A stretch of 64,000 bases of DNA, taken from assembly GCA_037481655.1 (NCBI GenBank), contig JBBFLF010000013.1, forward strand, positions 1 through 64,000, given 5' to 3'. Origin of the DNA: Desulfobaccales bacterium. GTDB taxonomy: Bacteria; Desulfobacterota; Desulfobaccia; Desulfobaccales; 0-14-0-80-60-11. The position numbers were made by a program, and so were the translations under genes. The number at the start of each line of letters is the position of its first letter. Within the stretch, counting starts at the first letter, position 1. Shown here piece by piece: positions 97-24,796 of the stretch. The notes beneath the pieces were generated by a model. The model did not search any database, was not told where the DNA came from, and was given only the letters and a program-made list of their open reading frames with translations.

Positions 97-1188
97 TCAA
101 CTCAGCCGCTCCATGCCGGGGGCTTTGGGGAAGGAGCCCAGGAGTTTGAACCAGGCGCTCAGGTGGCGGATTTCCTCCAGGGCCTGGCCCACGTGGGGGT
201 CGGCCTGGTGGCCGTCCAGGTCCACGAAGAAGAGGTAGCGCCAGGCTTCGGTCTTCATGGGGCGGGAGACGATGCGGCTCATGTTGATTTCCCGTTCCGC
301 CAGGGGGCGTAGGGTATGGTATAGGGCGCCGGGTACGTCGTCCACCGCGAAGATGATGGAAGTCTTGTCGGAGCCGGTGGGGCCCGGCGCGTCGGGGCCG
401 ATGACGAAGAAGTGGGTGACGTTGCCGGGGTGGTCTTCGATGCGTTTCTCGATGACCCGAAGGTCGTAGAGGGGTGCTGCAAAGGCGCTGGCGATGGCTG
501 CCGAGTTGGGATTTTTGGCGGCTTTCTGGGCCGCGGCGCCGGTGGAGGCCACTTCCAGCACCGGGATGTCCGGTAAATGCGTGGCCAGCCAGCGGCGGCA
601 TTGGGCGAGGGCCTGGGGGTGGCTGTAGATCACCTCCACATCCGAAATCTGGCCGGAGCGGGAGAGGAGATCGTGGCTGATCTCCAGGTAAATCTCACCG
701 CAGATGCGCAGGGAGTTTTCGGCAAAGAGGTCCAGGGTTTCGTTCACCACGCCTTCGGTGGAGTTCTCGATGGGCACCACGCCGTAGTGGTATTTCTCCT
801 TGCTCACCTCGCTGAAGACTTCCCGGATGGTGGCCATAGGCCGGTAGCGGGTGGCGTGGCCGAATTTCTTCAGGGCCGCCAGGTGGGAGAAGGTGGCCTC
901 CGGCCCCAGGAAAGCCACGGACAGGGGCGCCTGGATCTCCCGGGCGGCGGAGATGATCTCCCGGAAGATGTTGCGCAAGGCCGCAGAAGTGAGCGGCCCC
1001 GGGTTTTTGTGCAGCAGGTGGGCCAGCACTTCCTCTTCCCGGCGGAAATCCAGGGTGCGCTGGCCCTCCCGGTTCTTGATCAGCCCGATCTCCTGGGCCA
1101 GGGCCTGGCGGCGGTTGAGGAGCGCCAGCAGCTCCTCGTCCACCTGGTCGATGGCGGCTCGCAGCCGTTCTTTGTCCGTCATGGTCAT
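97..1188 (-). CDS. pheA: Bifunctional chorismate mutase / prephenate dehydratase
   Basis: P-protein of phenylalanine synthesis: chorismate to prephenate to phenylpyruvate, in the cytoplasm. At 363 aa it has the usual full length. Residues 1 to about 85 form an AroQ-type chorismate mutase helical domain (R-x-x-ID-x-x-D pattern near the start). About 90-265 is prephenate dehydratase, with the GPEATFSHLAA motif, IENSTEGVV and the GNVTHFFVIG catalytic segment (THF for the usual TRF). About 275-350 is the ACT domain for Phe feedback, with VPGALYHTL and a VSRP segment. The start overlaps the stop of the upstream aroB' by 4 nt, so the two are translationally coupled. It is the last gene of the operon controlled by the attenuator at 3051-3254. 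Confidence 0.95.
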   Translation of the reverse strand: MTMTDKERLRAAIDQVDEELLALLNRRQALAQEIGLIKNREGQRTLDFRREEEVLAHLLHKNPGPLTSAALRNIFREIISAAREIQAPLSVAFLGPEATFSHLAALKKFGHATRYRPMATIREVFSEVSKEKYHYGVVPIENSTEGVVNETLDLFAENSLRICGEIYLEISHDLLSRSGQISDVEVIYSHPQALAQCRRWLATHLPDIPVLEVASTGAAAQKAAKNPNSAAIASAFAAPLYDLRVIEKRIEDHPGNVTHFFVIGPDAPGPTGSDKTSIIFAVDDVPGALYHTLRPLAEREINMSRIVSRPMKTEAWRYLFFVDLDGHQADPHVGQALEEIRHLSAWFKLLGSFPKAPGMERLS

Positions 1189-2177
1189 TTCTCGGTGATG
1201 GTTTCCGTGACTTTATGGCCGAAATGGCGCCCGGCTTCCTCCAGGGCGGCCAGCACCTCCTCCCCGGGCTTTAAGGCCACGATGGAGACGGCCTCGCCCC
1301 CAGGCCGGGTGAGGCGGATGGTCTCAGCGTTCTGCAGGATGGTGCTGAACTCCTTCCCGTCGGCTTCGGCGGTCACCAGCATCAGGGGTCGGCTCTCCAC
1401 CTTCACCCGGCCCACCACCGCCGGCCGGGTGCTGCCGTCGTGGCGCACCACCAGGACCTCATCCCCCGCTTTCAGCTCCCCCAGATAGCGGGTCTTGCCG
1501 CCGGTGACCCGGATGTAGGCGTGTACCGGTCCGGCGTTCACCCGGAAGGGTCGGGGCGCCACGTAGGGGTTTTCCAGGGACTCGGCGTGCACCAGAAACA
1601 GCCCCCCGGAAGAGTTGCCCACCAGCATGCCTTCCCCCAACCCCAGGTTGGAGCAGGTGTCCACGCACACCCGGTCCCCCATCCCCAAGGGTTTGAGGCC
1701 GGTGATGCGGGCCACCGTCAGGGCCACTGGCGGGGAGGCCTCTTTCACCAGACGGGCCACCGCCTTGATGACGGAGGGGTCCCGGCTTGCTACCACCACG
1801 CCGTCCACGCCCTTCTCCAGCACCCCCAGAGCGGTGCGGGCCTCTTCGGGGCTGGCCACCTCCACAAAGATATTGCCGCTTTGGGCCACCAGGTTTTCCA
1901 GGGGGATGATGGTCCAGTCCGGGGTGCGGACAATGACCGGCAGCTCCCGGGCCAGGCGGATGACCTCCGCTTCGTCCTCGGTGGAGGTCACCGTCACTTC
2001 CGCCACCTGCCGCCCCGGCACCAGGTCGCCGTCTTCGGCCACCACTGTGATGAGGCCCAGGGCTTTGACCTCCGCAGCTTTCCCTGGCGGCACCCACACC
2101 GCGTCGGCGCCGGACTCCAGGGCGGTGGTCACCAGTTTCTTGTCCCAGGGGTCGATCTTCACCCACAGCTTTTTCAT
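1185..2177 (-). CDS. aroB': 3-dehydroquinate synthase II (archaeal type)
   Basis: 330-aa protein of the dehydroquinate synthase II family. It oxidatively deaminates and cyclises 2-amino-3,7-dideoxy-D-threo-hept-6-ulosonate to 3-dehydroquinate with NAD+, the second step of the non-canonical aromatic pathway first described in methanogens. Family features are the KIDPWDKKLVTTALE start, the DRVCVDTCSNLGLGEGMLVG stretch and the HAYIRVTGGKTRYLGEL stretch near the C-terminus. It lies 12 nt after aroA' and overlaps pheA by 4 nt. The pairing with aroA' makes the assignment secure; no canonical AroB or DAHP synthase is in the window. Confidence 0.93.
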   Translation of the reverse strand: MKKLWVKIDPWDKKLVTTALESGADAVWVPPGKAAEVKALGLITVVAEDGDLVPGRQVAEVTVTSTEDEAEVIRLARELPVIVRTPDWTIIPLENLVAQSGNIFVEVASPEEARTALGVLEKGVDGVVVASRDPSVIKAVARLVKEASPPVALTVARITGLKPLGMGDRVCVDTCSNLGLGEGMLVGNSSGGLFLVHAESLENPYVAPRPFRVNAGPVHAYIRVTGGKTRYLGELKAGDEVLVVRHDGSTRPAVVGRVKVESRPLMLVTAEADGKEFSTILQNAETIRLTRPGGEAVSIVALKPGEEVLAALEEAGRHFGHKVTETITEK

Positions 2178-2189
2178 GGGTTCTCTGCC

Positions 2190-3011
2190 TCAACTGGCCG
2201 CCCGGCGGCCCACTTCCACGGCGCTCAGGAAACCCAAGGCCTCATCCACGCTGGCGTTTTCATGCACGATGAGGCTGATGGCTCCCACCATGCGGGCCGG
2301 ATCCCGGTGCTGGAAGATGTTGCGGCCGATGGAGACTCCGGCCCCGCCGGCCTCGATGGAATCCTTCACCATCTCCAGGATCTCCCGGTCCGAGTTCATC
2401 TTGGGGCCGCCGGCGATGACCACCGGCACGGGGCAGCCCCGCACCACCTCCCGGAAGGACTCCACCGAGCCGGTATATGAGACCTTGATGATGTCGGCGC
2501 CCAGCTCCGCCCCCAGCCGGGCCACGTGCTTGATGACCGCGGCATCGTATTCGTTCTTGATCTTTTCCCCCCGGGGGTACATCATGGCCAGGACCGGCAT
2601 GCCCCAATCCCGGGCGTGGCGGCAGACCAGCCCCAGGTCGCTCAGCATCTCCTTTTCCGAGCCGTTGCCGATGTTGACGTGGATGCTCACCGCGTCCGCG
2701 CCCAGCTTGATGGCCTCCTCCACGGTGCACACCAGGGTCTTGGCGTTGGGGAAGGGTGAGAGCACTGTGGAGCCCGAGAGATGAATGATGAGCCCCACAT
2801 CCTTGCCCCGGCGGCGATGGCCGCCCTCCACCAGGCCCTTGTGAATGACGATGGCGTTGGCGCCTCCGGAGGCCACCGCATTGACGGTGGTCTTCATGTC
2901 GATGAGGCCCTCGATGGGTCCCACCGTCACCCCGTGGTCCATGGGGACGATGACGGTGCGTCCCGTCTCCCGGTTCATAATGCGTTCCATGCGGATGAGT
3001 TTGCCGATCAC
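2190..3011 (-). CDS. aroA': 2-amino-3,7-dideoxy-D-threo-hept-6-ulosonate synthase (ADH synthase)
   Basis: 273-aa class I aldolase-family enzyme (DeoC/FbaB-like TIM barrel). It joins a deoxy-ketohexose phosphate-derived unit with aspartate semialdehyde to start the archaeal-type route to dehydroquinate. Visible motifs: [15 protein letters not shown] near residue 25, [15 protein letters not shown], the Schiff-base lysine region [10 protein letters not shown], and [10 protein letters not shown]. First gene of the aroA'-aroB'-pheA operon. The ATG at 3011 follows a GGGAGGAGGCGACGTG ribosome binding region; a GTG just upstream is an alternative. About 190 nt of leader RNA with an attenuator precede it. 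Confidence 0.93.
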
Positions 3012-3050
3012 GTCGCCTCCTCCCGCCGGGGCACCGGGGGCCGGCCCAAC

Positions 3051-3088
3051 AAAAAAGCCGTGGCCCCCTCTGGTGCGCCACGGCTTTT
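3051..3088 (-). terminator. Attenuator terminator of the aromatic operon
   Basis: On the minus strand a perfect 12-bp stem (AAAAGCCGTGGC pairing with GCCACGGCTTTT, 12-nt loop) runs into a six-T stretch, 40 nt before aroA'. The loop side of the 5' arm (3072-3079, GGCGCACC) can instead pair over 8 bp with 3132-3139 (GGTGCGCC), inside the end of the leader ORF. That alternative pairing breaks the terminator, so an antiterminator is available. Confidence 0.88.
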
Positions 3089-3110
3089 AAAAGTTTGCTG
3101 GTTTGTGCTG

Positions 3111-3200
3111 TTAAGGACTTTTAAAAGTCGAGGCGCACCTGTAGCCCCAAAAATAATAGTAGCTAAAATAAAAGCCACGGAGCTGGAGCCCAAGGTGCAT
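3111..3200 (-). CDS. Aromatic-rich leader peptide (attenuation)
   Basis: 29-codon ORF starting ATG at 3200 and stopping TAA at 3111-3113. Residues 10-20 read FYFSYYYFWGY: three Phe, five Tyr and one Trp in eleven codons, exactly what a ribosome-stalling leader for an aromatic operon needs. A GAGGAA ribosome binding site lies at 3209-3214. The predicted transcript 5' end AAGTCGAGG (3211-3219) is complementary over 9 nt to 3125-3133 at the end of this ORF, so the leader's own ribosome site can also be sequestered. Stalling at the Tyr/Phe codons (3141-3173) would leave 3132-3139 free to form the antiterminator. Expressed from the promoter at 3225-3254. Confidence 0.88.
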   Translation of the reverse strand: MHLGLQLRGFYFSYYYFWGYRCASTFKSP

Positions 3201-3224
3201 GTGAATTTTTCCTCGACTTGATTC

Positions 3225-3254
3225 ATGCTAAATTTTTTGCGCCGGGGCTGTCAA
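3225..3254 (-). promoter_or_regulatory. Sigma-70 promoter of the aromatic operon
   Basis: Minus-strand TTGACA (3249-3254), 18-nt spacer, TAGCAT (3225-3230). The predicted start near 3218 leaves a short 5' end before the leader peptide ribosome site. An in-frame ATG within the -10 element cannot be used from this promoter. Confidence 0.75.
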
Positions 3255-3317
3255 GCTTTTTTTGTGTGTCTGAAGGGATGGGCAGGGGAAATGGGCTTCA
3301 CGCTCTCCACTCAGACA

Positions 3318-3396
3318 CCCCACCCCCTATAAAGGGTTGGGGGAGAGGGTCCGGGAGAGGGGGCAGGGGCCAGTGGTCCCTGGCCCCCTCTCCCGG
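3318..3396. repeat. GC-rich hairpin repeat, copy 2
   Basis: A short leading hairpin (CCCCCTATAAAGGGTTGGGGG) is followed by a long hairpin at 3351-3396 with arms CCGGGAGAGGGGGCAGGG and CCCTGGCCCCCTCTCCCGG; the 3' arm has one bulged C. The core GGGAGAGGGGGCAGGG/CCCTGGCCCCCTCTCCC is shared almost letter for letter with copies at 3581, 15711, 27157 and 34313. Confidence 0.8.
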
Positions 3397-3580
3397 AAAT
3401 TGGCTCATTCAGCCGACTGACTGGGAAAAGCGGCCCCCGGTTTCCCCTTAAAGCGCTTTACCGCTTTATATTTAGTTAAATGCTCCGGCCTGACCCGGTC
3501 AGGCAGGATGCCGGTGTCAGCTGTGTTATTTTGAGAGGAGGGATGGGGCTCCTAGGGCCCCCGTCCTCCCTTTAAATACC

Positions 3581-4965: not shown

Positions 4966-5030
4966 ATCAGCCAAGGGAAGTGGCATCCCTGGGCCAGAAA
5001 TCTCTGGGGTCTCAGTGACAGGAACCTGAT

Positions 5031-6257
5031 ATGGTATGGGCCTGCGCGGCGGCCATGCTCCTCACCCTGGGCCCCCTGGCGGCCCTCATCCTTCTAGGCG
5101 CCGGTCGCCTGGCCCGGAGTCTTGGGGAACCCCCGCCCCCTAGCGCCCCCTGGCCCCGCCTGAGCCTCATTGTGCCGGTGGCGGGCCCCCCCGAGGGCCT
5201 GGCCGCCGAGCTCACCACTCTCCTCACCCAGGATTACCCCGACTACGAGGTCCTGGTCGTCACCGCCCGCCTCGACGAGCCTGGGGTGCCACTGATCCAG
5301 GAGTTGATGCGGCGTTTTCGGCATCTGCGCCATGTGGTGAGCGGCCCAGCCCGGAGCTGCGGCCAGAAAAACCATAACCTCCTGGCCGGGCTCGGGCTTG
5401 CCGATCCCCGCTCCCCGGTGATTGCCTTCTGCGACCGGGGGCGCCTGGCCCCTCCGGATTTCCTGCGCCATCTGGTGGCCCCTCTTCTTGCAGGCGCCCA
5501 GGTGGCCAGCGGCTATCATCGCCTCCACCCCGACAAGCCCTGCCTCGCCGCTCTGGCCCGGGCCGCGGTGGTCCTGATGCTCCGCCTCACCCGGGAATTC
5601 CCCGTCCTGATGCAGCCCTGGGGCGGCGCCACCGCCCTGCGAGGGGAGCTTTTCACCAGCCTGGGCATCCCGGCCCTGTGGGCCAGGACCGTGGTGGACG
5701 ACGTCTCCCTGGCCGCCCGGCTGAAGAAGTGCCGGGTGCCCGTGGTGTCCGCCCCCGGCGCCCTCCTGACCACCCCCGCGGCGCCTGAAACCTGGGGGCA
5801 GGCGGTGGCCTGGCTCACCCGGCAATGGCTCTATCTGAAATATTACTTCCCCGGCACCTGGCTGGCGGCCGGGCTTCTCGTCCACCTCACCCTGGCCCTC
5901 ACTGCGGCCGTGGGGTTACAGCTCCTGATGACCCCTTTGCTGGGTGTGGGTCTGGAAACCTGCCTGGCCGCCGGCTATGTGGGCGCCCTGAGCCTGCTGT
6001 GCACCCGCCTCCACCGCCTGCTTCAGACTCCGGTTAGGAGAGGCCAGGCCCTGCTCCTCTGGCCGGCCGCGTTGCTTTTGGCCGCCTGGGCGCACCTGGC
6101 CTCCGGTGTCACTCACGTTTTGCGCTGGCAGGGGCTGGCATACCGGATGGGCCTGGGCGGCGAGGTGCGCCAGATATGGCGGACGGACTCATCAGACTCC
6201 CCCGCCGCCGGCAGTGTGCTCGGACTCGGGGGCAAGGAGGGGGCCCGGAAAACCTGA
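5031..6257 (+). CDS. Membrane family 2 glycosyltransferase (ceramide glucosyltransferase-like)
   Basis: 408-aa GT-A transferase with an N-terminal membrane anchor (about residues 2-25) and three or four C-terminal membrane segments (about 275-370), the layout of HpnI/ceramide-glucosyltransferase-like proteins. The catalytic domain starts RLSLIVPVAGPPEGL, with the first aspartates in DYPDYEVLVV. At the usual D-x-D site it reads FCDRGR. An acidic VDDVS motif precedes the QAVAWLTRQW motif that stands for the family Q/R-x-x-R-W signature. It probably transfers a sugar to a lipid. Likely co-transcribed with the upstream GT4. It converges with the response regulator, only 3 nt apart, with no hairpin between. 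Confidence 0.82.
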   Translation: MVWACAAAMLLTLGPLAALILLGAGRLARSLGEPPPPSAPWPRLSLIVPVAGPPEGLAAELTTLLTQDYPDYEVLVVTARLDEPGVPLIQELMRRFRHLRHVVSGPARSCGQKNHNLLAGLGLADPRSPVIAFCDRGRLAPPDFLRHLVAPLLAGAQVASGYHRLHPDKPCLAALARAAVVLMLRLTREFPVLMQPWGGATALRGELFTSLGIPALWARTVVDDVSLAARLKKCRVPVVSAPGALLTTPAAPETWGQAVAWLTRQWLYLKYYFPGTWLAAGLLVHLTLALTAAVGLQLLMTPLLGVGLETCLAAGYVGALSLLCTRLHRLLQTPVRRGQALLLWPAALLLAAWAHLASGVTHVLRWQGLAYRMGLGGEVRQIWRTDSSDSPAAGSVLGLGGKEGARKT

Positions 6258-11109: not shown

Positions 11110-12315
11110 CTACTCTTCCGGCATGTGCAGGAAGTGCTCGCTGGTGCCCACAATTTCCGGTTCCGCTTCCAGACCCAGGGACACCTCCCGGGGCTGAAAC
11201 CACACCTGGGCAATGATGGTGGGAATGACCGCCGAGGCGATGACGCCGGCCACCAGAACGGAATACTGCGACTGGTCAATATACCCGTGGGTCAGCCCGA
11301 AGAGGGCGGAAATGCTTCCGAAGGTCAACCCGGTGGCCATGAGCAGGGTGGTATAATTGCTCTCTCTCACCGGGATCCCGAACAGCCGGCACAGCGGCCA
11401 GATGCCCACGATCTTGGTGACCATCTTCATGGCCAGCAAGGCCACCAGGGCCCCAAAGCCCGCCACCAGGGCCGGCAACGACACCAGGGTGCCCGCCTTG
11501 ATGAAAAAGAAGGGGGTCAACAGGGCAAAGGTGGTGGCCCTGAGGCGGTGCAGAATCACCTTGTCGTGCACAAACAGCCCGGCAATCACCATCCCGAAGA
11601 GGTAAGCCGGCAGCACCGCCTCGCTCCGGGCCGTCACCGCCAGGCCCCCCAGCACCGTGAGCACCAGGAAGATGAGCTTGATCTCCGGCTCGATCACCCG
11701 GCCCCCCCAAAGGGAGAAAAACCAACGGCACAGGCGGGGCAACTGCCACAGGGCCACCAGGGTAACCGCCGCAAAGATCAGGAGCCAGCGATCATACTCG
11801 GCAAACAGGAGCCCCAGGGCCAGCACCGTGCCCAGATCGGTGATGAAGCAGGCGGCCAGGATGAGTTTCCCCAGCTCGGTGTTGTTGAGACCGGTCTCCA
11901 CCATCACCGCATACACCACCGCCATGGAGGTGGTGGACATGGCCACCCCGGCAATCTGGGCCGCTTGCGAGGACCAGCCGCCCACATAGTAGGCGTAGGC
12001 CATGCAGCCCAAAAAAGGCGCCAGAAAGGAGATGAAGCCGATGGCCAGGCTGGGCTTCCACAGACGCCGGAAGGCCTCGGGCTCGATCTCCGCCCCCGCC
12101 AGAAAGGTGAGGACCACCGAGGCGAAACCGGCGAGAAAGTTGATCCAGGGAGTGGGCTTGAAGATCTCCCAACCGAAGGTGGTGCCTAAATTCCCGGCAA
12201 TGCAGCCCAAAAAGATTTCCACCAGGGCCACCGAGATGCCCACCCGGATGGAGATGAGGCTGGCCAACAGGGCCACCCCGATCCAGGCCGCGGCCGTATA
12301 CCAGACCTGCTCCAT
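11110..12315 (-). CDS. Cation:proton antiporter (CPA2 family), fluoride-riboswitch controlled
   Basis: 401-aa inner-membrane protein with about 11-12 hydrophobic segments and no C-terminal RCK domain, of the Na_H_Exchanger (CPA2/KefB-like) family. The signature helix pair reads STTSMAVVYAVMVETGLNNTE, then AACFITDLG with a buried Asp at residue 160, the usual ion-binding position. The ATG at 12315 follows GGAGGATATC. The 5' leader carries a fluoride riboswitch (12347-12439). Antiporters are among known fluoride-riboswitch targets, so this protein probably helps ion or pH homeostasis under fluoride stress. The ion (Na+, K+ or other) cannot be settled here. Confidence 0.9.
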   Translation of the reverse strand: MEQVWYTAAAWIGVALLASLISIRVGISVALVEIFLGCIAGNLGTTFGWEIFKPTPWINFLAGFASVVLTFLAGAEIEPEAFRRLWKPSLAIGFISFLAPFLGCMAYAYYVGGWSSQAAQIAGVAMSTTSMAVVYAVMVETGLNNTELGKLILAACFITDLGTVLALGLLFAEYDRWLLIFAAVTLVALWQLPRLCRWFFSLWGGRVIEPEIKLIFLVLTVLGGLAVTARSEAVLPAYLFGMVIAGLFVHDKVILHRLRATTFALLTPFFFIKAGTLVSLPALVAGFGALVALLAMKMVTKIVGIWPLCRLFGIPVRESNYTTLLMATGLTFGSISALFGLTHGYIDQSQYSVLVAGVIASAVIPTIIAQVWFQPREVSLGLEAEPEIVGTSEHFLHMPEE

Positions 12316-12346: not shown

Positions 12347-12439
12347 AAAAAACTCCTGTCCCGCCACCATCAGGATCAGGAGTCATCAGCGTGAAACGCG
12401 GTTCGGACGACCACGACCGCCCGGGCGGACTCCATCGCC
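12347..12439 (-). promoter_or_regulatory. Fluoride riboswitch (crcB motif) upstream of the antiporter
   Basis: Minus strand. The aptamer begins GGCGATGGAGTCCGCC (12439-12424), an optional hairpin follows, then AACC, a short stem GCGT/ACGC, and the conserved TGATG ending in GACTCC (12384-12379), which pairs with GGAGTC (12433-12428) as P1. Downstream, ACTCCTG (12383-12377) can pair with CAGGAGT (12358-12352) ahead of six T residues, forming a terminator that shares bases with P1. This is the ON-switch design known for fluoride riboswitches. Confidence 0.87.
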
Positions 12440-12451
12440 GCGCATCTTGAG

Positions 12452-12511: not shown

Positions 12512-12540
12512 TTGACATTGGCTCACCTTTCCCTTAGATT
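12512..12540 (+). promoter_or_regulatory. Sigma-70 promoter for the riboswitch-GTPase transcript
   Basis: TTGACA (12512-12517), 17-nt spacer, TAGATT (12535-12540). The predicted start falls at about 12547, right at the first base of the plus-strand fluoride aptamer. Confidence 0.68.
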
Positions 12541-12547
12541 AAAACTA

Positions 12548-12632
12548 GGCGATGAAGTCCGCCTTCAACCGCCCGGCCATGAGGCGCAGGGCTGATGACT
12601 TCTGTCCAGTACATCCGGGCAGAAGTTTTTTT
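12548..12632 (+). promoter_or_regulatory. Fluoride riboswitch (crcB motif) upstream of the dynamin-like GTPase
   Basis: The aptamer begins GGCGATGAAGTCCGCC (12548-12563), then TTCAACC, stem GCCC/GGGC (12571-12574 with 12589-12592), and TGATGACTTC (12593-12602). P1 is GAAGTC (12554-12559) with GACTTC (12597-12602). ACTTCTG (12598-12604) can instead pair with CAGAAGT (12620-12626) before a seven-T run, a terminator exclusive with P1. The conserved letters match the crystallised Thermotoga aptamer as I remember it. The gene's ribosome site lies 15 nt past the T-run. Confidence 0.88.
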
Positions 12633-22063: not shown

Positions 22064-23341
22064 ATGAAGAATCTAGTGGTTCTGGGGCACGGCACCGGTG
22101 GCACCATCATCGCCGCCAAAATGCGACAGAAGCTGCCGGAGCGGGAGTGGCGCATCACCGTCATCGACCGGGACTGGCAGCACCACTACCAACCGGGATG
22201 GCTCTTCATCCCGTTCGGCATCTACACCAAAGAGGACTGCGTCAAACCCCGGAGCCGCTATGTGCCCCCGGGCGTCAACTTTGTCCTGGACGACATCCTG
22301 GGAATTGACCCCGACAAGCGCCAGGTCCGCACCAAACAGGCCACCTTTCCCTATGATTTCCTGGTCATCGCCACCGGCTGCCGCATTGTGCCGGAGGAGG
22401 TGGAGGGCATGGCCGGCGAGGCCTGGGGAAAGGACATCCACACCTTCTACACCCTGGAGGGTGCCTTGGCCCTCCATGATAAACTCAAATATTTCAGCCA
22501 GGGCCGGGTGGTGCTGAACATCGCCGAGCTGCCCTTCAAGTGTCCTGTGGCCCCCTTGGAGTTCTGCTTCATGGCGGACTGGTTCTTCGCCGAAAACGGG
22601 GTGCGGGACAATATCGAGATCGAGCTCACCACGCCGCTGCCCGGGGCCTTCACCAAACCCATGGCCTCGGAGATGCTGGGGCGGCTGGCCCAGGAAAAAA
22701 ACATCAAGGTCACCCCCAACTTTCAGATCTCCGGGGTGGATGCCAAGCGCCGGGTCATCACCAGTTACGACGGCCGGGAAGTGCCCTATGATCTGCTGGT
22801 GGCCATCCCGCCCAACTTCGGGGCCCAGTGCATCATCGACAGCGGGATGGGCGATCCCATGGGCTACATGGACACCGACCATAACACTCTCAAGGCCAAG
22901 AATTTTGAGCGCATCTACGTTATCGGCGACGCCGCCAATGTCCCCACCTCCAAGGCCGGGGCGGTGGCCCACTACGAGGCGGACGTGGTGGCGGAAAACC
23001 TCCGGCGGGAGATCGACGGCCAGCCCCCCAGGCCGGATTATGACGGCCACGCCACCTGAATGGTGGTAACCGGGTACGAGAAGGGGTCCCTTCTCGATTT
23101 CAATTACAAAGTGGAGCCGCTGCCCGGCAAATTCCCCTTCCCGGGGATCGGGCCCTTTGATCTTCTGGGAGTCAGCTTCGCCAATTACATGGGCAAGATG
23201 ATGTTCCGCTGGGTGTACTACAACCTGATGCTCAAGGGCAGCCACCTGCCCCTGGAACCGCAGTTCATCCTGGCGGGCAAGGTCCGGGGCATTCTCTCCC
23301 CTGACATCGAGATCCCGCTGCGAGCCCGGAGGCGGCCATGA
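22064..23341 (+). CDS. SQR-like FAD oxidoreductase, putative selenoprotein (in-frame TGA = Sec332)
   Basis: Sulfide:quinone-oxidoreductase-family flavoprotein. The FAD site is VVLGHGTGGTIIAAKM; cysteines lie in VIATGCRIVP and LPFKCPVAPLEF. The frame meets TGA at 23057-23059 and continues unbroken in the same frame to 23341, giving 425 aa, the family length. The context is DGHAT-(TGA)-MVVTG, then GSLLDFNYKVEPLPG. In homologues I recall this as GHANCF(I/L)E-x-G, so TGA sits exactly on the redox cysteine that works with the KCP cysteine in sulfide oxidation. A hairpin with a GGTC loop lies 25 nt downstream. Most likely the codon is read as selenocysteine. Alternatives: a nonsense mutation, or two split ORFs. 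The last codons overlap the DUF1641 gene by 4 nt. Confidence 0.8.
23077..23096 (+). promoter_or_regulatory. SECIS-like hairpin
   Basis: Perfect 8-bp stem CGAGAAGG/CCTTCTCG with tetraloop GGTC (23085-23088), inside the coding sequence, starting 17 nt after the in-frame TGA; the loop begins 26 nt after it. GGUC is also the loop of the E. coli fdhF SECIS, and the distance lies in the known bacterial range. A bulged U as in E. coli is not seen. Confidence 0.68.
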
Positions 23342-23925
23342 ACGGCGAGGCGGAACTGAGCGAACGGCTGGCCCGCATCGAGGAAAAGCTGGACCGGGTC
23401 CTGGCCATGGAGGAAAAGCTCCAGGTCTTCGCCGACTGGTGGGAGAATATCCACGACCTGGGCCGGGACCTCTCCCTGCTCACCCATCCCACCGTGAAGA
23501 TGCTCACCGAGGAGCTGGCGGAGGTGGAGACCGGCTTCCAGTCCGAAGACGTCTTTATTCTCTTAAGGCGCCTGCTCCTCAACTTCCGCAACCTGGCCTG
23601 GTCCCTGGATCAGCTGGAGAATTTCATCGACTGGTGGCGGGACCTGGAGCCCATCCTCAAAGTGGCGGTGCCCCGACTCATCGACCAATTGGACCAGCTG
23701 GAGGAGGCGGGGCTCTTTCGGGTGCTGAAAAACGCCACCAGCCTGGAAATGATCCGCTTTTTGGACCGCTTAAGCCGGGTGCCGGTGGAGGTGGATTTGG
23801 CCGCCGCTCGGCCGGTGGGGCCGGTGGGTCTTATGTGGCGTCTCAGGAGCCCCGAGGCCCGGCAGGGGCTGGGCCTGGTGGTGGAACTCACCAAGGCCCT
23901 GGGCAAGGTCAAGGGCGAGGCGTAA
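23338..23925 (+). CDS. DUF1641 family protein
   Basis: 195-aa soluble helical protein. An N-terminal coiled coil (ERLARIEEKLDRVLAMEEKL) precedes the DUF1641 core; the C-terminal signature is PVGPVGLMWRLRSPEARQGL followed by LVVELTKALG. The family typically sits beside SQR-like or formate dehydrogenase-like flavoproteins and is thought to be an accessory or membrane-association partner; its exact role is not known. The start overlaps the SQR-like stop (ATGA), showing translational coupling, which itself argues that ribosomes reach the end of the TGA-containing frame. Confidence 0.87.
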   Translation: MNGEAELSERLARIEEKLDRVLAMEEKLQVFADWWENIHDLGRDLSLLTHPTVKMLTEELAEVETGFQSEDVFILLRRLLLNFRNLAWSLDQLENFIDWWRDLEPILKVAVPRLIDQLDQLEEAGLFRVLKNATSLEMIRFLDRLSRVPVEVDLAAARPVGPVGLMWRLRSPEARQGLGLVVELTKALGKVKGEA

Positions 23926-23965: not shown

Positions 23966-24796
23966 TTACCTGCGCTTTTGCTCCCACAGCCGGGAGAGGG
24001 CCGCCAGATGCGCCTTTTCCTCCTCGGCAATCTCAAAGAAGACCTGACGGGTGGCCTCCTCCCGGCACTTCCGGGCCAGCCGGAGGTAAAGGTCCAGGGC
24101 CTGGGTCTCCACCGTCAGGGCCAGCTCCAGGGCGGCGGCCAGGGTGGTGAGGTAGGGGGCATTGCGGGCGAGAAACTCGGACAGCTGGAAACCGCCTTCC
24201 ATCACCTCGGCGCCGGCGGCGGCCAGAGAGGCGGGGTCGGCCGTGGGGGTGATTTCCGCATAACGGTGGCGGAGCCGCTCCTGATGCGCCGCCTCCACCT
24301 GCATCATCTGCCGGCAGAAGGATGCCAATTCCGCATCCTGGGCCGCCTGCGCCACGGCCTCATAAAATGCTTGCAAAGCCCGCTCCAAGCCGTACGCCAG
24401 AGTGAGGGCCTCCGCCGGGCTCTCATCGCCCCGGACGAGCTCCTGGTGCAGCCCCTCGGGACCGGTGGCGGTAAGGCCGTTATAGGCATAGATACCGCCC
24501 GCCAGATTATAGACCTCCCGGAAGCCCAGGCTGCTTAACAGCTGGGCCGCCGCCCGGCTGCGGCCCCCGGCGGCGCAGTAGGCCAGCACCGGCCTTGCAG
24601 GGTCCAGCTCCTGCACCCGCCCCGGAAGCTCCCCCAGGGGCACGAGGGTGGCCCCGGGCAGATGGCGCTCCTCATACTCCCAGGGCTGGCGCACGTCCAG
24701 GAGGGTGTAGCTGCCCGCCGGCTGCTCGAGGAGGAACCGCCGGGCCGCTTCCGGGTCCATCACGGCCACCTCGGCGGATTTCGCCTCAGTCATCAT
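23966..24796 (-). CDS. Rhodanese-ferritin-like (rubrerythrin-type) fusion protein
   Basis: 276 aa with two domains. Residues about 10-112 are a rhodanese domain with active Cys in LAYCAAGGRSRAAA, which transfers sulfane sulfur. Residues about 125-272 are a four-helix ferritin-like domain with E-x-x-H ligands: MQVEAAHQERL in one helix pair and FFEIAEEEKAHLAAL at the end. A second in-frame ATG at 24793 fits the GAGGGAG ribosome site slightly better. It converges with the SQR-like/DUF1641 pair, so sulfide and polysulfide handling under oxidative stress is a fair guess. Such fusions occur in other anaerobes. Confidence 0.88.
   Translation of the reverse strand: MMTEAKSAEVAVMDPEAARRFLLEQPAGSYTLLDVRQPWEYEERHLPGATLVPLGELPGRVQELDPARPVLAYCAAGGRSRAAAQLLSSLGFREVYNLAGGIYAYNGLTATGPEGLHQELVRGDESPAEALTLAYGLERALQAFYEAVAQAAQDAELASFCRQMMQVEAAHQERLRHRYAEITPTADPASLAAAGAEVMEGGFQLSEFLARNAPYLTTLAAALELALTVETQALDLYLRLARKCREEATRQVFFEIAEEEKAHLAALSRLWEQKRR

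Follow-up and report, generated by a model that had tools for sequence, protein, structure and literature searches.

A putative selenocysteine-containing type III sulfide:quinone oxidoreductase predicted from an in-frame UGA and a downstream hairpin in a Desulfobaccales genome

The window analysed here is a stretch of 64,000 nucleotides from a Desulfobaccales bacterium. Among the records closest to it are one from an uncultured bacterium (98%) and one from a Syntrophobacterales bacterium (96%); several near relatives have Desulfobacca as their recorded name, and a plasmid search gave a short weak match only. On its plus strand, positions 22064 to 23341 hold a gene for a predicted selenocysteine (Sec)-containing type III sulfide:quinone oxidoreductase (SQR) of 425 residues, assigned by the NF049943 profile, by alignment with human SQOR and by a fold match. 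Translation from the ATG at 22064 to the TGA at 23339-23341 meets one in-frame stop only, the TGA at 23057-23059; the initial annotation had described a frame broken by this single TGA, and re-reading returned the same coordinates. It had also taken the two flanks of the TGA for one SQR protein, which was borne out by the profile: with the TGA read as a residue, NF049943 is matched over positions 1-405 of 406 with 664.7 bits (cut-off 525, E 4.6e-200). NCBIfam names this profile 'type III sulfide quinone reductase, selenoprotein subtype', and the type III label used here is taken from that name rather than from a phylogeny of our own among the six SQR types. As pure Cys homologues also score above the cut-off, a match to NF049943 alone cannot show Sec. 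In a sample of the phylum, 20 of 297 genomes contained a match over the cut-off, and within the class 19 of 29 did so, where every TGA-bearing match belongs to the window's own family. Sec copy and Cys paralogue occur together in several of these genomes (G214, G257, G302, G303, G306, G307 and G300); the source genome has the Sec copy without a Cys paralogue.

Human SQOR, usually classed as a type II SQR, is the best solved relative by sequence alignment (residues 4-392, E 5e-48) and also the top fold match (E 9.7e-30, 402 columns, 26% identity in the structural alignment). The structure model behind the fold match is of moderate quality (mean pLDDT 67, with low confidence after residue 331) and served for fold comparison only. 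In the human enzyme Cys201 and Cys379 make the catalytic trisulfide, the sulfane sulfur staying on Cys379 and the charge-transfer complex forming on Cys201 (PMC11039317). Counting by hand on the alignment, we place Cys160 of the window's protein at chain position 161 and the TGA at chain position 339, which an offset of 40 converts to Cys201 and Cys379. The codon of Cys160, the partner active-site cysteine (FKCPVAP), lies at 22541-22543 on the plus strand, and the residue is invariant in 19 aligned homologues. The motif around the TGA, YDGHAT-U-M-VVTGY, matches the human YDGYTSCPLVTGY, so that the proposal that the TGA sits where the family has its redox cysteine agrees with the alignment. The motif given for that site, GHANCF(I/L)E, does not hold for the window's protein and rather resembles distant SQR-like relatives, most homologues of 29-32% identity having C-F-L-E at this column.

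Alignment of the homologues for a Cys or TGA at this column, which the initial annotation had suggested, gave one or the other throughout: every homologue that covers the column has TGA or Cys, with no exception. The TGA is present in 20 distinct full-length homologues, namely the window's gene, 16 more with its hairpin type and three from a separate lineage, and Cys in all others found. Hence the HxxU column combines an in-frame TGA with Cys homologues, as in the published NF049943 family, and with Cys160 and Sec332 both sulfur-bridging positions would be occupied by redox-active residues, invariant as Cys or Sec. Taken as a whole, the evidence for a predicted Sec at the catalytic Cys position is strong.

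If the TGA came from a sequencing error or from a nonsense mutation of recent date, the gene would be a normal Cys SQR or else a pseudogene. A change of one base from TGC or TGT would be enough for this, and at 2.87 Mb in 50 contigs, with a completeness of 100, the source genome looks like a draft assembly. This explanation was rejected as close to negligible in probability, since the same-codon TGA recurs in 20 distinct homologues from many independently assembled genomes, and since the region past the TGA is under purifying selection. Over the 80 codons that follow it, the differences at codon positions 1, 2 and 3 number 8, 4 and 28 against the homologue L087 and 1, 0 and 10 against L049 (upstream counts for L051 and L061 were left out, as an indel spoils them), and this third-position bias implies that the C-terminal part is translated and that purifying selection on it continues. 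A second possibility was that translation does end at the TGA and that stop-restart then yields the rest as a protein of its own, as the window indeed has an ATG directly after the TGA. In relatives, however, the codon after the TGA is CTG, ATT or TTT; known SQRs need both active-site residues, and the Cys homologues are single proteins. The variable codon, the recurrence of the TGA and the downstream purifying selection led us to reject stop-restart as well, as very improbable.

Downstream of the TGA we found a SECIS-like hairpin at 23077-23096 on the plus strand, with the stem CGAGAAGG / CCTTCTCG and the loop GGTC. Folding reproduced the perfect 8-bp hairpin reported 17 nt past the TGA at the same coordinates, with stem arms at 23077-23084 and 23089-23096 and the loop at 23085-23088; a SECIS-like hairpin soon after the UGA with a G in its apical loop is what is expected of a bacterial selenoprotein gene. 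Taken alone, the hairpin is unusual to a moderate degree and not extreme: 16 of the 1770 TGA triplets of the window (about 0.9%) have a stem of eight or more perfect pairs in range, four of the 1770 have such a stem together with a GG loop, and its fold z-score reaches -1.3 over 51 nt and -2.5 over 91 nt. Its significance comes from conservation across relatives. The window's clade contributes 17 distinct full-length Sec genes, and codons 338-344 (TAC GAG AAG GGG TCC CTT CTC), which form the hairpin, are invariant in all of them. Of 225 columns with an invariant residue (Met, Trp and Cys excluded), just 21 have an invariant codon, and flanking codons with an invariant residue mostly vary. Only at the hairpin are seven codons in a row invariant, with no other stretch of the gene coming close, and their freezing exactly there indicates that the RNA itself is under selection. 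Because the 17 hairpins are identical, there are no compensatory pair changes among them that would back the structure, and synonymous-site conservation was used in place of covariation; this codon invariance is the strongest single piece of support for the hairpin probably working as RNA. Moreover, the codons are frozen in TGA-bearing genes only, which speaks further against a sequencing error.

The check for selA, selB, selC and selD that had been proposed found all four in the source genome: selA with 617.1 bits, selB with 350.8 bits, selC/tRNA-Sec with 73.8 bits and the anticodon TCA, and selD, itself with one internal TGA. The same genome has three FdhA-like genes with an internal TGA (G000:C10:62437-65475, C7:122703-123422 and C4:90990-91721), which are likely further selenoproteins, and in two of them the motif CARLUHS is followed by a hairpin with the loop GGTCT. 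As these two hairpins share a GGTC-type loop, GGTC looks like the SelB target of this organism, and its SelB would probably recognise the loop in the SQR gene too. The Sec-containing formate dehydrogenase (FdhA) thus resembles the SQR in having a UGA and then a hairpin with a GGTC-type loop, but it is an unrelated protein and its loop is closer to the UGA, at about 18 nt in the two FdhA hairpins versus 25 nt in the SQR gene, a difference that counts somewhat against the Sec reading.

The SQR gene overlaps by ATGA with a gene for a DUF1641 protein at 23338-23925 on the plus strand (PF07849, E 1.1e-8), in agreement with the start at the end of the extended frame that had been assigned to it, and the overlap is likely to reflect translational coupling. 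A DUF1641 homologue lies directly 3' of the SQR gene in nearly all close-family loci, and since this holds for Sec and Cys loci alike, the pairing appears to predate the Sec form; our literature search found nothing linking DUF1641 with SQR. Beside the operon, on the minus strand at 23966-24796, is a rhodanese-rubrerythrin fusion gene (PF00581, E 1.5e-19; PF02915, E 1.8e-9), which also adjoins the locus of one close relative (L048) and was not seen at the other loci read; its product is a possible persulfide handler, associated with the operon by position only. Directly 5' of a Cys paralogue of the SQR in another locus (L065), an HdrA-like gene with Pyr_redox_2 and 4Fe-4S domains spans positions 418-3489.

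Elsewhere in the window are two divergent fluoride riboswitches, at 12370-12448 on the minus strand (43.6 bits) and at 12539-12611 on the plus strand (52.8 bits). The first precedes an apparent cation/proton antiporter gene at 11110-12315, identified by eye, and the second overlaps the first listed start of a dynamin-like GTPase gene (PF00350), which it would control; to our knowledge, a dynamin-like GTPase is not a familiar fluoride riboswitch partner.

The column alignment, the recurrent TGA, the conserved hairpin and the Sec machinery support the claim of the initial annotation that Sec replaces the sulfur-bridging cysteine, and we consider it highly probable that the gene encodes a selenoprotein SQR with Sec inserted at UGA 332 via SelB and the GGUC-loop hairpin. 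SelB loaded with Sec-tRNA(Sec) would bind the hairpin 17 nt past the UGA, and Sec insertion at position 332 would yield a membrane-associated flavoprotein of 425 residues. By analogy with human SQOR, HS- may attack the sulfur that bridges Sec332 and Cys160, after which the sulfane sulfur would remain on Sec332 and then go to an acceptor, Cys160 would make the charge-transfer complex with the flavin, and electrons would reach the quinone pool via FAD. If selenium or SelB were lacking, translation would end at 331 residues, short of the other active-site residue and of the C-terminal part that binds the membrane, so SQR activity should depend on selenium. The co-translated DUF1641 protein would probably work together with the SQR.

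It is possible, though we think it less likely than not, that Sec is inserted and the main reaction is other than sulfide oxidation, such as polysulfide reduction or the handling of selenide or persulfides with DUF1641, in the service of sulfur reduction or detoxification. The family name rests on homology, DUF1641 is without known function, the Cys paralogue at L065 adjoins an HdrA-like gene, and the host, probably a sulfate-reducing Desulfobacca-like organism of an anaerobic lineage, does not have net sulfide oxidation as its obvious metabolism. Against this, the protein retains both active-site residues and resembles SQOR over its full length. In the main reading the SQR would act in the direction of sulfide oxidation, with electrons flowing towards the quinone.

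The protein tree places four Cys genes, L083, L055, L082 and L057, in one group with the Sec genes of the clade to which the window belongs (100/100), and these four are nested within the group (97/87). Hairpin stability is lower in three of the four, as the hairpin has decayed to between -7.0 and -8.3 kcal/mol in L083, L082 and L057. At 4994-5040, L055, from Desulforhabdus sp. TSK, has TGC for TGA, followed by a hairpin that is almost intact, one of its pairs being G-U (-13.0 kcal/mol); the chance of its synonymous codons at the hairpin is about 0.001, calculated from the codon usage of the gene as a product of counts, and the hairpin is likely a fossil SECIS element. Two of the nested Cys genes are held by genomes (G044 and G296) that retain selB. 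The nesting, the kept hairpin of L055 and the retained selB favour a reversion from Sec to Cys. A second Sec group, L067, L068 and L069, is placed apart from the window's clade in the tree and has an unrelated hairpin, AGCCAT-GGT-ATGGCT, with the loop GGT nearer to the UGA. AU tests did not reject the alternative to reversion (p 0.117 for protein, p 0.152 for DNA) or a single Sec origin (p 0.181), and for this reason reversion and two origins are favoured only. We lean towards the view that Sec was gained at least twice in SQR, in a Desulfobacca-like clade (GGTC/CGAGAAGG) and in a Desulfobacteraceae clade (GGT/AGCCAT), and was lost once to Cys despite selB. If so, Desulforhabdus sp. TSK would have been caught mid-reversion, with TGC replacing TGA and the hairpin intact.

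From bacteria to human mitochondria, sulfide oxidation begins with SQR, which catalyses through a Cys-S-S-S-Cys bridge, so that a natural Sec at the position of human Cys379 would offer a direct test of the role of selenium in persulfide chemistry. Closely related Sec and Cys SQRs, some within one genome, form a ready comparison set for this. For annotation, pipelines that read UGA as stop would cut the SQR gene at 331 residues. The remark of the initial annotation that it did not know the enzyme as a selenoprotein needs correcting, because the family is in NCBIfam (NF049943), in the 2025 deep-Sep paper, which has Sec SQR in print (PMC12013277), and in a 2026 review, which lists the type III SQR selenoprotein subtype as NF049943 with the motif HxxU in its Table 1 and credits the deep-Sep paper for it (PMC13188914). 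The Sec SQR family was thus already predicted and catalogued in 2025-2026, and the gene is a good new example, not a new kind; what seems new here is the second Sec lineage with its other hairpin and the probable Sec-to-Cys reversion with a fossil SECIS. Compared with the published NF049943 Sec SQR, the predicted enzyme is alike in family, HxxU motif, TGA at the column, SECIS-like hairpin and Cys homologues, and differs in its host, the hosts named there being Desulfosediminicola species whereas here it is a Desulfobacca-like lineage. Compared with human mitochondrial SQOR (PDB 6OI5, 6OI6), it shares a full-length alignment, both active-site positions and the best fold match; however, identity in the structural alignment is 26%, and the human enzyme has Cys379 where Sec is predicted here.
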